Shown: piece by piece, positions 23,818-55,762 of the stretch | Layout of the letters: each line of letters begins with the position of its first letter | Position numbering within the stretch: the first letter of the stretch is position 1 | Assembly: GCA_016125285.1 (NCBI GenBank) | Contig: WGMA01000048.1 | Location: forward strand, 1 to 64,000 | Length of the DNA: 64,000 nucleotides | From: Phycisphaera sp. | GTDB taxonomy: Bacteria; Planctomycetota; Phycisphaerae; Phycisphaerales; Zrk34 | Direction: 5' to 3' | Notes under the pieces: generated by a model | The model's database searches: none | What the model saw: the letters and a program-made list of their open reading frames with translations, nothing else | Told to the model about the DNA's origin: nothing | Program-made: the position numbers and the translations under genes

Positions 23818-23893
<76 letters not shown>

Positions 23894-24004: not shown

Positions 24005-25270
24005 ATGCCGCGCAGGAAACGTGTCCCGTCGTACCGTCTTCACAAGCCCACCGGCCAGGCCGTCGTGACCATCGATGGCAAAGATTATTACCTCGGCATA
24101 CATGGCTCGCCGGACAGTCACGCCCGGTACAACCGGCAGATCACCGAGTGGATCGCCAACCACGAAACCGCTCCACCCGATGATGCGTCCACGCTTCACG
24201 CGGACCTGCGCGTCAGCGAGTTGGTCGGGCCCTACCTTCGTCACGCCGAGACGTACTACGTCAAGAACGGACGACCCAACGGTGAATACACGAACATGAA
24301 GGATGCAGCGCGTCCGCTTGTGCAGTTCTATGGCAACACGCGCATCGGCGAGTTCGGGCCTCGCGCGTTGAAGGCGTTGCAACACGCCATGGTCGATGCG
24401 GGGCTGTCACGCAAGGTCATCAACTCGCGGATCAACCGCGTCCGCCGCATCTTCAAATGGGGCGTGCACAACGAGATGGTCAGCGCCACCGTGCTGCACG
24501 CGCTGCAAACGGTCCCGCCGCTCAAGCACGGGCGGTGCGACGCGCGCGAGACCGAGCCGGTGCGTCCCGTGAGTGACGGAATGATCGAAGCGGTGCAGCC
24601 GTTCGTCAACAGCCAGGTCTGGGCGATGATCCAGACGCAGTTATATTCCGGCATGCGCCCCGGAGAGGTCGTGTTGATGCGTCGCTGCGACCTCGATATG
24701 GGTGGCAAGGTTTGGCTGTACCGACCGCAGACTCACAAGGGCCAGCACCACGGCCACGACCGCACGATCTTCATCGGCCCAAAGGCGCAGAAGATCCTCA
24801 AGCCATTCTTCAAGCATAACCTCGATGCATGCCTGTTCAGCCCGACAGACGCCGAGGCAGATCGGCGTCAGCGGCTCCATGAAAATCGCAAGACACCGAT
24901 GTCCTGCGGTAACCGGCCCGGCACGAACCGGCGACGCAAGCCGAAGAAACAACCGAGTGAACGCTACACCGTTCAAAGCTATCGCCAGGCAATCCAACGA
25001 GCGTGCGACAATGCGTTCCCACATCCCGAACTGTCCAAACTCGATCAAAATGAGCTGACGGACGAACAGCGTGACGAGTTCAAGCGATGGCGTAAGAATC
25101 ACCGCTGGCATCCGCACCAGCTCCGCCATAACGCCGGAACGCATCTGCGCAAGGAGTTCGGCGTCGAGGTGGCGCGCATCGTTCTCGGGCATCGCCATAT
25201 CGAGACGACGGAACTCTACGCCGAGGCGAACATCCAGAAGGCGATCGAGGTGATACGGAAAATCGGCTGA
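24005..25270 (+). CDS. int: Tyrosine recombinase / phage-type integrase
   Basis: 421 residues; catalyses site-specific integration and excision between attP and attB. The N-terminus (PRRKRVPSYRLHKPTGQAVV, DGKDYYLG) resembles an arm-binding domain. The core-binding domain spans about 75-170. The catalytic residues are Arg in YSGMRPGEV, His-x-x-Arg in HPHQLRHNAG, His in LGHRHIETT and the nucleophile Tyr in ELYAEA. All are intact, so the enzyme is probably active. A GGAGG ribosome site precedes the ATG. Location next to the tRNA and direct repeat is typical. Confidence 0.96.
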   Translation: MPRRKRVPSYRLHKPTGQAVVTIDGKDYYLGIHGSPDSHARYNRQITEWIANHETAPPDDASTLHADLRVSELVGPYLRHAETYYVKNGRPNGEYTNMKDAARPLVQFYGNTRIGEFGPRALKALQHAMVDAGLSRKVINSRINRVRRIFKWGVHNEMVSATVLHALQTVPPLKHGRCDARETEPVRPVSDGMIEAVQPFVNSQVWAMIQTQLYSGMRPGEVVLMRRCDLDMGGKVWLYRPQTHKGQHHGHDRTIFIGPKAQKILKPFFKHNLDACLFSPTDAEADRRQRLHENRKTPMSCGNRPGTNRRRKPKKQPSERYTVQSYRQAIQRACDNAFPHPELSKLDQNELTDEQRDEFKRWRKNHRWHPHQLRHNAGTHLRKEFGVEVARIVLGHRHIETTELYAEANIQKAIEVIRKIG

Positions 25271-27451: not shown

Positions 27452-28168
27452 ATGGCAAGCATGATCAGGACCTTGACTCCCGCAGAGTTGATCGGCCCAC
27501 TCAACGACCTTGAGGAAGCTTACGCACCTAAGGAGTTGTACGTTCAGGGCGACACGGACCTGATGCGAGGCACGCGCCGCGTCTCGATCGTCGGATCCCG
27601 CAAGCCCTCGCCCAACGGGATCAAACGAGCACGAAAGCTCGCGCGTCAACTCGTCGAGGAAGACGTCGTCATCGTTAGCGGCCTTGCCGAAGGGATCGAC
27701 AGCATCGCCCATCGCACCGCCATCGAATTGGGCGGCAGCACCGTCGCGGTCATCGGCACGCCGCTCGACAAGACCTATCCGGCGAAGCATGCATCGCTGC
27801 AAGCCGAGATCGCTGAAGACCACCTCGTCGTCTCGCAGTTCCCCGTCGGCACCCAGACCTACCCCAGCCATTTCCCGGCACGCAACCGCGTCATGGCCCT
27901 TGTCTCCCATGCGACAGTCATTGTAGAGGCATCCGAGAAGAGTGGCACCCGTCATCAAGGATGGGAAGCTATCCGACTGGGGCGCCCGCTGTTCATTGCT
28001 CAGTCCCTGATCGATGCGAAGGTCGCTACGTGGATCGACGAGCAACTGTCCTATGGCGCCCAGCCGTTGAGTGACGAGACCTTTGCGGACCTGATCGATC
28101 AGTTGCCTCCCAAGGGATTCGATCCAAGGGACGTGTCTGTCGAATCGCTTCTCCAAAAGAGCGCGTGA
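27452..28168 (+). CDS. DprA/Smf-like Rossmann protein
   Basis: 238 residues covering only the DprA/Smf Rossmann domain. Motifs are VSIVGSRKPSPNGIKRARKL, VIVSGLAEGIDSIAHRTA, TYPSHFPARNRVMALVS and ATVIVEASEKSGT. The SAM-like N-terminal and winged-helix C-terminal domains of chromosomal DprA are absent. DprA binds single-stranded DNA and loads RecA in transformation. Stand-alone versions on mobile elements have been proposed, from gene neighbourhoods, to sense nucleic acid or nucleotide signals. Its stop overlaps the start of a phosphoribosyltransferase gene (TGATG), so the two are probably one functional unit. Confidence 0.85.
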   Translation: MASMIRTLTPAELIGPLNDLEEAYAPKELYVQGDTDLMRGTRRVSIVGSRKPSPNGIKRARKLARQLVEEDVVIVSGLAEGIDSIAHRTAIELGGSTVAVIGTPLDKTYPAKHASLQAEIAEDHLVVSQFPVGTQTYPSHFPARNRVMALVSHATVIVEASEKSGTRHQGWEAIRLGRPLFIAQSLIDAKVATWIDEQLSYGAQPLSDETFADLIDQLPPKGFDPRDVSVESLLQKSA

Positions 28169-28833
28169 TGCGATACATCTCTCTTCTTCGATACAAGCCA
28201 CGGGACAACAGCAAGCTCGGAAATCAATGCCAGGGCATCGTCAACGCCATTAAGAATGACCAGGCACTCGCCGAGGGCACGCTCGCCTCCGAGGCGATCG
28301 CGCAGGTGCTGTCTCAGGTCGTCAAGGATCAGACAAACCTTCAGCAGGTATTTGACGGCAAGGCGGCCCTGATTCCGATCCCCCGTTCTGCCCGGCGGAG
28401 TAAGGATGCGTTGTGGCCATCGTTGCGGATTGCGAATGCTCTCTGCAAGCATGGACTCGGGAGTGAAGTGCTCATCGCCGTAGAGCGGCACAAGAACATC
28501 CGTTCCGCGCATACGTCCGGACGCAACCGCCCCACGGTTGACGAACACCTCGAAACGCTACGGAGTTGCCTGCCACTGAACGCCAAGCCACGCCGGATCA
28601 TTCTGGTTGATGACGTGATCACTAAGGGCGCCACAGCTTGGGCCTGTCGGGGCGTGCTACAGGATGAAGTCCCCGCCGCAGACATCATCACGTTCGCTGC
28701 CGTGAGCACCGAGCATCCTGATGCGACACTCATCGGCCCCATCGCGATCCGTGATGGGGTGATCCAGCATGGGCCCTACGGGCAGTGGCGACCAGACACG
28801 AAGAATCCGGCAACCTGGGCAAGCGGCGCGTGA
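28168..28833 (+). CDS. ComF-like phosphoribosyltransferase
   Basis: 221 residues. The PRPP-binding loop is RRIILVDDVITKGATAWA (about 142-159). An earlier segment, ALIPIPRSARRSKDALWPSL, resembles the VPVP-type start of ComF amidophosphoribosyltransferase-like domains. The C-terminus is short. The Cys-rich zinc finger of typical ComF is absent. It is translationally coupled to the DprA-like gene. DprA and ComF both belong to competence machinery, but here they sit in a mobile island without other competence genes. Substrate unknown. Confidence 0.8.
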   Translation: MRYISLLRYKPRDNSKLGNQCQGIVNAIKNDQALAEGTLASEAIAQVLSQVVKDQTNLQQVFDGKAALIPIPRSARRSKDALWPSLRIANALCKHGLGSEVLIAVERHKNIRSAHTSGRNRPTVDEHLETLRSCLPLNAKPRRIILVDDVITKGATAWACRGVLQDEVPAADIITFAAVSTEHPDATLIGPIAIRDGVIQHGPYGQWRPDTKNPATWASGA

Positions 28834-29315: not shown

Positions 29316-30518
29316 ATGCACGTGAAGATTCCCCTGTCCAAGCTGGTCGCCAGCCGCAAGAACCCCAGGCGCGTCAAGCCGATGCGTGAGGCGCATCGGC
29401 GGTTGGTCGCGTCGATCCGAACCCACGGGCCGATGGGCACGCTGACGGTCCTGCCCGAGCAGGACGGCAAGCACAAGGTCATCGCCGGGTGTCGGCGGCT
29501 GGCCGCGATGCGAGAGGTCTACCGTCACGCGGACGACGATCCGCTGATCCACTGCGAGGTGCGCGAGGTCGATGGGGTCGGAGCCGAAGGGATCGCGCTG
29601 GCCGAGAACTTCGCCCGGGAGCCGATGCACCCGCTGGACGAGGCCGAGGCGTTCGCGCGGCTGGCCCACGTGGACGCCAAGGGCGTGTCGGCCATCGCGT
29701 CGCAGTTCGGCGTGGAGCCGAAGTACGTCCGTCAGCGCATGAAACTCGCCGGACTGGCCGAACCGATCAAGCAGGCGTACCGCGCCGACGCCATCGACAC
29801 CGGCGCCGCCGAGGCATTCGCGACGGTCAGCGTCGAGAAGCAACTCGAACTGTGGTCCGAGATCGACGGTCCCCGGAACGCCGGTCGATGCGATGCGCAG
29901 CGGGTGCGGGCCATGATCGAACACGACTGGATCGAGGCGACGCACGCGCTGTTCGACATCGAGACGCTGCCGCACCAAGCCGTCAGCCGCGACCTGTTCT
30001 GTGAGCGCGTGCTGATCGAGCGGGCGGCGTTCTTCGAGGCCCAGGCCGAGACGCTGGCCGAACGCCAGGCCGAACTGCTCGACGACGGGTGGAACGACGT
30101 CGTGATCGCCCCGCGCGGCGACGTGTATGACCGGCTCATGCGCATGGATCGGCTGGAAGGCGAGATGGACGACGCGAGCCGGGCGCGGCAGGCCGAGTTC
30201 GACCAACGGCGTCGGCAACTCGAAGCCAAGTTGGAACATGTCGACGAGGACGACGAGCAGGCGGCCGATGCGATCTACGAACAACTCGACGCGCTCGACG
30301 CTCAGGAAATCCAACTCGAACGGGCCGCGACGCGGACCTACAGCGAGGCGGACAAGGCGCACGGCACGGTGTTCTTCGTCCTCGATCCCGACGGCGGCGT
30401 GCAGACGCTCTATCGCTCGCCGCGCCGCTCGGTGTCGCGGGCCGGTGGCGGGATTCCCCGGCTCCCGAATCCGTCCCCGGCATGGGGCGCGGGCCGCAAC
30501 TGCCTGCCGACGCGTTGA
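29316..30518 (+). CDS. ParB/RepB/Spo0J-type DNA-binding protein
   Basis: 400 residues. The ParB N-terminal domain (1-110) starts KIPLSKLVASRKNPRRVKPM, continues MGTLTVLPEQDGKHKVIAGC and ALAENFAREPMHPLDEAEAF, and uses the RR-L-A and E-N-x-x-R-type patch that binds CTP in ParB. A helix-turn-helix follows (VSAIASQFGVEPKYVRQRMK). A long C-terminal region (about 270-370) is coiled coil rich in Glu/Gln. No ParA partner is adjacent, so it may be a plasmid/ICE-type ParB-like regulator rather than a segregation protein. The ATG at 29316 has GGAGG upstream. Confidence 0.85.
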   Translation: MHVKIPLSKLVASRKNPRRVKPMREAHRRLVASIRTHGPMGTLTVLPEQDGKHKVIAGCRRLAAMREVYRHADDDPLIHCEVREVDGVGAEGIALAENFAREPMHPLDEAEAFARLAHVDAKGVSAIASQFGVEPKYVRQRMKLAGLAEPIKQAYRADAIDTGAAEAFATVSVEKQLELWSEIDGPRNAGRCDAQRVRAMIEHDWIEATHALFDIETLPHQAVSRDLFCERVLIERAAFFEAQAETLAERQAELLDDGWNDVVIAPRGDVYDRLMRMDRLEGEMDDASRARQAEFDQRRRQLEAKLEHVDEDDEQAADAIYEQLDALDAQEIQLERAATRTYSEADKAHGTVFFVLDPDGGVQTLYRSPRRSVSRAGGGIPRLPNPSPAWGAGRNCLPTR

Positions 30519-30721
30519 TTCACGTCGAACTCAAGACCGGCCGCATCTACCGCGTGACGCTGGGCGACTGGCTCAACATCGACCGCTACAGCCACGAAGT
30601 GCCCGTCCGATCCATCAGCGGCCGGCGCGTGGCCGACCTGCCCGACTGCTTCAATCCTTACGACCGCCCCCGCATCACACGCAAGGAGGTCTACTACGTC
30701 CACCTCGAACCGCCGCGGTGA
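30482..30721 (+). CDS. Small hypothetical protein (79 aa)
   Basis: 79 residues, probably a small beta-rich protein (LIHVELKTGRIYRVTLGDWL, VPVRSISGRRVADLP, ITRKEVYYVHLEP). It overlaps the end of the ParB-like gene by 37 bases, so it may begin later or be translationally coupled. Family not recognised. Confidence 0.5.
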   Translation: MGRGPQLPADALIHVELKTGRIYRVTLGDWLNIDRYSHEVPVRSISGRRVADLPDCFNPYDRPRITRKEVYYVHLEPPR

Positions 30722-30866
30722 GTCCGCTTCATCCAACAACCCACACGAGGCCGACCGGTCACACGGTCGGCTTCATTCTTGCGCATGCGGATCGCAACGT
30801 GCCGCGCCGCCATCGGCTTTACGTTCCTGCAACGGATTCGGCTCATTACTTCTGCGGGTTGAGGCG

Positions 30867-30949
30867 GGCTTCTCCCTCAAGGCGTGGCGGGGTTGTCCCT
30901 CACTTTTGGGGTGAAGGGACAACCCCACCACTTTCAACAAGGAGAAGCC
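30867..30949 (+). promoter_or_regulatory. Long mRNA hairpin that would hide the ardC ribosome site
   Basis: Two nested inverted repeats precede ardC: GGCTTCTCC (30867-30875) with GGAGAAGCC (30941-30949), and GGGGTTGTCCCT (30889-30900) with AGGGACAACCCC (30915-30926). The outer 3' arm contains the GGAG ribosome site of ardC, whose ATG is at 30953. Formation of the outer stem would block translation. A role as a riboregulator is inference from the pairing. Confidence 0.6.
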
Positions 30950-30952
30950 TCG

Positions 30953-31765
30953 ATGAAGACCGCAGACGCGAAGAAGATCGCCGACACCGCCGTGCAGGAA
31001 CTGGCCGAGCAGTTGGCGCAGGGGCGAAGCGAAGCGCTCATCCAGTACCTCGACACGATGGCCCGGTTCCATCACTACAGCTGGCACAACGTGATGATGA
31101 TCCTGTCGCAGCGGCCGGACGCCAGCCGCGTGGCGGGGTTCCGCACCTGGAAGAAGCTCGACCGCTTCGTCAAACGCGGCGAGAAAGGCATCGCGATCTT
31201 CGTGCCGATCCGTGTCAAGGCGACCGACCCGGTGACCGACGAGGAGAAGAAGGTGCTGCGTTTCAAGGTCGGGTACGTGTTCGACATCGCTCAGACCGAA
31301 GGTGAACCACTCGCCGATTACGAAATCGCCCGTTCCAGCGGTGACCCCGGCGAACACCTGGACACGCTCAAGTCCTTCGTGGCCTCTCAGGAGATCGAAC
31401 TGCACTACGCCGGCAACCTCGGCGGCGCCGAAGGCGTATCCAAGGGCGGCCGCATCGACATCCTCGAATCGTTGTCCCCCGCGGAAGAATTCGCAGTCCT
31501 GGCACACGAGATCGCACACGAGATGATGCACCGTGGCGAAGACCGCGCGACGCTGACGAAGACCGTCAAGGAAACCGAAGCCGAAGCCGTGGCCTACGTC
31601 GTGTGCAAAGCCGTCGGGATCGAGTCACCGGGTAGCGCCGACTACGTGCTGATGTACCAGGGCGACGCCGACACGCTTGGCGAATCGCTGGAACGCATCC
31701 AGCGCGCCGCCGCGAGGGTGATGACGGCGATCACCGCGGATCGGGACAACGTCGAGCCACAATGA
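30953..31765 (+). CDS. ardC: ArdC-type antirestriction protein
   Basis: 270 residues. The N-terminal ArdC domain (1-115) has the signature LDTMARFHHYSWHNVMMIL, then FRTWKKLDRFVKRGEKGIAI; it binds single-stranded DNA in studied homologues. The C-terminal metallopeptidase-like domain carries AVLAHEIAHEMMH (HExxH near residue 185) and a downstream Glu-rich helix (ETEAEAVAYVV). ArdC proteins protect incoming plasmid DNA from restriction during conjugation, which fits an integrative element. The ATG at 30953 has AAGGAG upstream, within a potential RNA stem. Confidence 0.9.
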   Translation: MKTADAKKIADTAVQELAEQLAQGRSEALIQYLDTMARFHHYSWHNVMMILSQRPDASRVAGFRTWKKLDRFVKRGEKGIAIFVPIRVKATDPVTDEEKKVLRFKVGYVFDIAQTEGEPLADYEIARSSGDPGEHLDTLKSFVASQEIELHYAGNLGGAEGVSKGGRIDILESLSPAEEFAVLAHEIAHEMMHRGEDRATLTKTVKETEAEAVAYVVCKAVGIESPGSADYVLMYQGDADTLGESLERIQRAAARVMTAITADRDNVEPQ

Positions 31766-31799
31766 GGTTGCGTCTTACGCCTGCCTTGGCGCGGCGCGA

Positions 31800-32103
31800 T
31801 CAGAACGTGAACAACGCGCGCACCCTTGCGGCGCGCTGGCGCACCGTCGACATCGTCACGCCCATCAACTGCTCGAACTCGCTGTTGAGCAGTCCCGGGA
31901 CGCCGACGGGGATCTTGCCGTCGTTGACGACGGCGTAGATGATCCCCGCCCTCGGGTTTACCCGCCGGCGGCTTGTCGGCGACGCGCAGCAGGCGCAGGG
32001 CCTTGTGCGCCCGGTCCCGCATCGTCGGGCTGGGGTGCGCGGCGAAGTACCGTTCGAGGTGGCGCTTGACGGTAGCCTCGAATTCAGAGTCGTTGGCGTC
32101 CAT
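31800..32103 (-). pseudogene. Frameshifted small regulatory-type gene
   Basis: The first half reads MDANDSEFEATVKRHLERYF, continuing to KALRLLRVADKPPAGKP. The second half continues in another frame as AGIIYAVVNDGKIPVGVPGL and ends VTMSTVRQRAARVRALFTF. Together they form one protein of about 100 residues with a C-terminal helix-turn-helix-like end. The shift lies in the GC-rich run near 31960. A one-base indel or a sequencing error is equally possible. Family not recognised. It converges on ardC. Confidence 0.5.
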
Positions 32104-55715: not shown

Positions 55716-55762
55716 GCTTCCCAAGCTGAATGTCGAGGGTTCGAGCCCCTTCACCCGCTTTG
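55716..55762 (+). repeat. attR, right 47-bp direct repeat
   Basis: Exact copy of 23847-23893 comprising the anticodon-arm to 3' end portion of tRNA-Gly plus three bases. No acceptor 5' half precedes it, so it is a fragment and not a second tRNA gene. It marks the right end of the island. Confidence 0.95.

Follow-up and report, generated by a model that had tools for sequence, protein, structure and literature searches.

What does the hairpin lying directly upstream of an ardC-like gene do, and could it bear on how anti-restriction genes are switched on only at entry into a new cell? An answer exists for a few plasmids of enterobacteria and Bacillus, in the form of single-stranded promoters and repressor dilution. 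To our knowledge, the question is open beyond those few plasmids, and the structured leader of the pLS20 ardC gene still lacks a mechanism. In the window considered here (the whole 64,000-nt stretch of DNA that was analysed), the region is most probably a cis-acting 5′ leader RNA of ardC, which would sequester the ribosome-binding site (RBS) of the gene.

The gene lies within an integrated island of 31.9 kb, which has a lower third-position G+C than its flanks and contains ParB-like, DprA-like, ComF-like and surface-polysaccharide genes. The main landmarks around ardC are:

23847-23893 and 55716-55762: 47-bp direct repeats that delimit the island, the first copy being the 3′ portion of tRNA-Gly(ccc), 23818-23890
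24005-25270: tyrosine integrase, beside the tRNA-Gly
30747-30774, plus strand: terminator-like hairpin with a T-rich tail, 3′ of the upstream ORF 30482-30721
30953-31765, plus strand: ardC-like gene, 270 aa, with an ArdC N-terminal ssDNA-binding domain and an HExxH metalloprotease domain

Judged by its sequence, the ORF at 30953-31765 is ArdC-like: it matches Pfam ArdcN (E 1e-10, 42.1 bits, cut-off 22.6) and, by phmmer, the R388 ArdC structures 6I89/6SNA (E 0.0012), and the residues H185, E186, H189, E207 and E211, which make up the HExxH motif and the distal Glu of the metalloprotease domain, are invariant among ArdC relatives. Its genome has one copy of the gene. The upstream ORF stops at 30721, about 145 nt before the leader, and is followed by the terminator-like hairpin; therefore ardC is probably transcribed separately, from a start between about 30780 and 30866, with the leader as its 5′ UTR. 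No relaxase, oriT or transfer genes were recognised among the scanned ORFs, which are a subset of those of the island. A DprA-like and a ComF-like (phosphoribosyltransferase) gene overlap at 27452-28833, a short way upstream of the ParB-like gene and ardC; the combination is unusual and might represent a module for defence or DNA uptake.

The leader is about 85 nt long, forms one nested hairpin in the predicted fold and abuts the start codon. Its parts are:

30867-30875, plus strand: outer stem 5′ arm (GGCTTCTCC), the anti-Shine-Dalgarno arm in the window fold, whose CUCC is also present in relatives
30884-30900, plus strand: inner hairpin 5′ arm, from the window fold and the inner arm-swap test
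30901-30914, plus strand: apical loop region, whose last five bases are the conserved GGUGA (30910-30914) adjoining the inner 3′ arm
30915-30931, plus strand: inner hairpin 3′ arm, from the window fold and the inner arm-swap test
30941-30949, plus strand: outer stem 3′ arm (GGAGAAGCC)
30941-30944, plus strand: ardC Shine-Dalgarno GGAG, with which the outer 3′ arm begins
30869-30955, plus strand: segment matched by the covariance model R1 with 21.3 bits (E 0.006 in 248 kb), ending on the ardC ATG

The two outer arms are 9 bp long and 100% complementary, and the inner arms of 17 nt are 94% complementary with a perfect central 12 bp (GGGGTTGTCCCT/AGGGACAACCCC), so the nested 9-bp and 12-bp arms of the original prediction are located exactly where it had placed them. 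Its claim that the GGAG of ardC is inside the 3′ arm of the outer stem is likewise borne out, with a distance of 8 nt between GGAG and the ATG at 30953. The ardC frame is also open upstream through the leader (30884-30952), where a GTG at 30884 is in frame with the ATG; this is not common to the relatives.

The original prediction named fold energy and covariation in relatives among its checks, and these two turned out in its favour. For the first, the predicted RNA fold of 30861-30958 (98 nt) has an energy of −55.4 kcal/mol, where shuffles average −33.7 (z −5.9, with none of 200 shuffles as good), and in a 151-nt context z is −5.0, so that the window leader beats all shuffles with z of −5 to −6. 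The same hairpin folded as single-stranded DNA reaches −28.9 (z −4.5). The predicted opening cost is 9-16 kcal/mol for the leaders of the relatives and 3.9 kcal/mol for the window leader, the lowest of the set, the open form of which is then predicted to pair the start codon. In the model, most leaders remain closed at 60 °C, and for this reason an RNA thermometer is unlikely. A further stem outside the others, enclosing the ATG (for example UCUGCGG/CCGCAGA in the window), was also considered and gained no support from arm swapping (p=0.31).

A relatives sample yielded ArdC relatives in 10 of its 100 other genomes, and a 400-genome sample of the order yielded them in 44 other genomes; minus-strand loci were turned to the coding direction before their leaders were read. 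Same-order relatives having a leader of the same architecture share 45-57% protein identity with the window ArdC (45-56% for the aligned representatives), and their leaders are only about 57-69% identical to that of the window. At least six leader sequence types could be distinguished (the window type, GCTCC/GGAGC, GTCCTCC/GGAGGAC, CCTTTCG/CGAAAGG, L023 and L050); most relatives are from one family, one leader type retains about 80% identity between genera, and the independent lineages number perhaps six or seven. All of these types have the Shine-Dalgarno in the outer stem together with an inner hairpin. The leaders of the order pair the Shine-Dalgarno to a CUCC arm within stems of differing sequence, and its core is paired in 18 of 18 representative leaders, with flanking pairs of G-C, C-G, U-A or G-U. 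Fourteen of the 59 ardC relatives examined have no recognisable Shine-Dalgarno at the chosen start, and here the domain is often fused inside a longer ORF.

As for the second check, homologous ardC leaders do carry compensating base changes. When arms were swapped between leaders, the own partner was preferred both for the outer stem (15 representatives; sum −302.7 kcal/mol, 0 of 100,000 permutations, p<1e-5) and for the inner duplex (16 representatives; 0 of 200,000 permutations, p<5e-6), in permutations that ignore ancestry and with structures derived from the same sequences. A strict version, restricted to the three pairs flanking CUCC/GGAG in 13 unique types, gave p=0.0045, and the pair adjoining GGAG is kept in all 32 of 32 leaders as G-C, C-G, U-A or G-U. 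A1, the first alignment made with MAFFT, placed the outer arms wrongly. In alignment A3, 10 of 20 pairs show double changes and the covariation score is 0.50, compared with 0.28 for shuffled and at most 0.21 for slid controls; alignment A2 of close relatives has three pairs with double changes and 96.9% pairing. For the inner stem, a fixed-register test gave p=0.17, the register being ambiguous in C-runs, and the duplex arm-swap was used instead. The bias of G-U over A-C pairs, by which an RNA hairpin differs from a DNA hairpin, comprises events too few and sparse to prove RNA over DNA. Taken at the level of sequence comparison, the predicted leader fold is a real element kept by compensating mutations and not a chance hairpin.

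The element is restricted to ardC and to this bacterial order. The covariance model R1, built from 12 relatives with the window excluded, finds the window leader in the 248-kb set, whereas whole-genome scans of the window's own genome, in which the leader is single copy, did not recover it; the model is thus weak for the window leader type. All 23 of the 23 strong R1 matches (E<1e-14) in the 400 genomes of the order are located at ardC starts. Of the ardC leaders with a Shine-Dalgarno, 84% have it paired to an arm far upstream, compared with 22% of other ORFs at the same loci (one pairing metric, Mann-Whitney p 2e-10, uncorrected for ancestry). The leader structure is absent from the ArdC relatives of Firmicutes plasmids. 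The element is also absent from viral-contig ArdC relatives, 33% of which are far-paired against the 22% background, with 4% above 0.9, and from the ardC of the planctomycete plasmid pK2D_1, where the Shine-Dalgarno is open in the predicted fold. No Rfam covariance model matched the leader, and a full-text literature search for ardC together with riboswitch returned nothing relevant. The leader is apparently an undescribed control element, a further RBS-sequestering leader specific to planctomycete ardC.

The outer stem would pair the Shine-Dalgarno with the upstream CUCC arm, and the inner hairpin would close the domain with a GYGA loop. In nearly all leaders that have an inner hairpin, this GYGA (sometimes ACGA or UUGA, and GCAA in L025) immediately precedes the inner 3′ strand; the loop motif forms invariant columns in alignment A1, and the stems vary freely. 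A trans-acting binder, which would relieve or reinforce the block, is proposed mainly because the loop bases are conserved while the stems vary, a pattern that points to a recognition site. In the default state, the RBS would be blocked and translation would be low, so that little ArdC, a protein potentially harmful to host defences or to the host, may be made. The element occurs only before ardC, and ArdC is a protein that binds single strands; for these reasons autogenous repression by ArdC is our first guess for the switch, conjectured and tentatively held. Such repression would produce a burst of ArdC on entry of the element into a cell without ArdC. Other options for the switch may be RNase III cleavage of the stem, a small RNA or another host protein. 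A wider and still more speculative idea is that the leaders constitute an as yet undescribed class of regulatory RNA in planctomycete mobile elements, acting as a translational switch under autogenous or ligand control that would be off in the established host, would allow a burst at entry and would replace single-stranded promoters as the signal of a new host.

Several other explanations of the hairpin have to be weighed against an RBS-sequestering leader. On the one hand, the hairpin could act as DNA, as a Frpo- or ssi-like promoter in which the transferred strand folds and is read by RNA polymerase, so that ardC would be on only while single-stranded; the original prediction had offered such a start signal specific to incoming DNA beside its hairpin hiding the RBS. 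The hairpin does fold as DNA, plasmid leading-region anti-defence genes can use Frpo (PMC11541004), and ArdC is needed in the recipient (PMC7213743). However, no sigma-70-like −35/−10 elements, which define Frpo candidates by their presence in the stem (PMC11541004), were found in 30400-31900, and G+C-rich sequence makes up the stems. With the hairpin reaching as far as the Shine-Dalgarno and ATG, a start site would not fit in ahead of the RBS, and a transcript begun downstream of the hairpin would be without an RBS. Moreover, RBS pairing, the one constant across the relatives, would not be needed by a DNA promoter, and the scanned island ORFs include no recognised relaxase or transfer gene. 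A single-stranded promoter is thus very unlikely, and what stands of the original prediction is the RBS-hiding mRNA hairpin, by its structure, its position on the Shine-Dalgarno and its compensatory conservation, while the part on the single-strand start signal is not supported. On the other hand, the structure could stabilise the transcript or block transcription, with RBS pairing as a side effect, similar to the EGeRS1 region upstream of the pLS20 ardC, which keeps upstream promoters from driving expression (PMC8708921). The stem is not followed by a U-run, and such a hairpin would have no need of the Shine-Dalgarno, yet every representative includes it with covarying flanks, which makes this explanation unlikely.

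Coupling to a leader peptide, where ribosomes on an upstream ORF would open the stem, could draw on the in-frame GTG/TTG that runs through the window leader; it was rejected as highly improbable, in that the leaders have no upstream start or frame in common and the previous ORF ends some 145 nt upstream and is followed by the terminator-like hairpin. A chance or neutral inverted repeat is the least probable of these explanations: G+C-rich DNA folds readily, and the 22% of other genes there with a partly paired Shine-Dalgarno are in keeping with it, but it is contradicted by the shuffles, the arm-swap tests and the covariation.

Among known systems, EGeRS1 of the pLS20 family resembles the window leader in being a conserved, highly structured region immediately upstream of the ardC RBS (PMC8708921), and it lowers ardC expression in reporters (PMC8708921). 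It differs in being 420-750 nt long, multibranched and placed before five operons with the RBS outside the described structure (PMC8708921), whereas the window leader is a single nested hairpin with the RBS in its stem, before ardC only, in Planctomycetota; the EGeRS1-type trait of a 400-600 nt multibranched region before several operons is absent, the leader being single copy and strong matches occurring only at ardC. For EGeRS1 too, a single-stranded promoter was considered unlikely by those who described it (PMC8708921). Frpo and ssi of F and ColIb-P9 (PMC11541004) are similar as hairpins upstream of an anti-restriction gene; unlike them, the window leader has neither −35/−10 nor an UP element and runs into the RBS rather than lying upstream of a transcription start. 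The autogenous operator of T4 gp32 (PMC535899) offers a likeness of another kind, that of a single-strand-binding-protein gene with structured RNA at its start that would limit its own synthesis; the fold differs, and binding of ArdC to the leader is our conjecture. Riboswitches, thermometers and phage translational operators likewise pair the Shine-Dalgarno in a leader stem, from which the present leader is set apart by having no Rfam family match and by a predicted fold that stays closed at 60 °C for most leaders. A compact, covarying RBS-sequestering leader of ardC would thus offer a testable translational answer to the entry question for Planctomycetota, and its conserved loop may serve as a handle for finding the binding partner.

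Some R1 matches and leaders fall outside the main pattern. L113 (G151:C1:1401311-1401376) is an intermediate match with no detectable ardC behind it, whose predicted fold is no longer a nested hairpin, and it is apparently a decayed remnant of an ardC leader. L065 (G001:C31:166131-166208), in a genome of the same family as the window's, matches weakly with 31 bits directly upstream of csrA; its outer stem is not formed, and this match is probably due to chance, as weak matches in G037, G101, G064, G124 and G399 were also judged to be. In planctomycetes beyond the order (L074, L076 and L080), the ardC Shine-Dalgarno is also paired, by differently built stems, which suggests that RBS sequestration at ardC evolved repeatedly.
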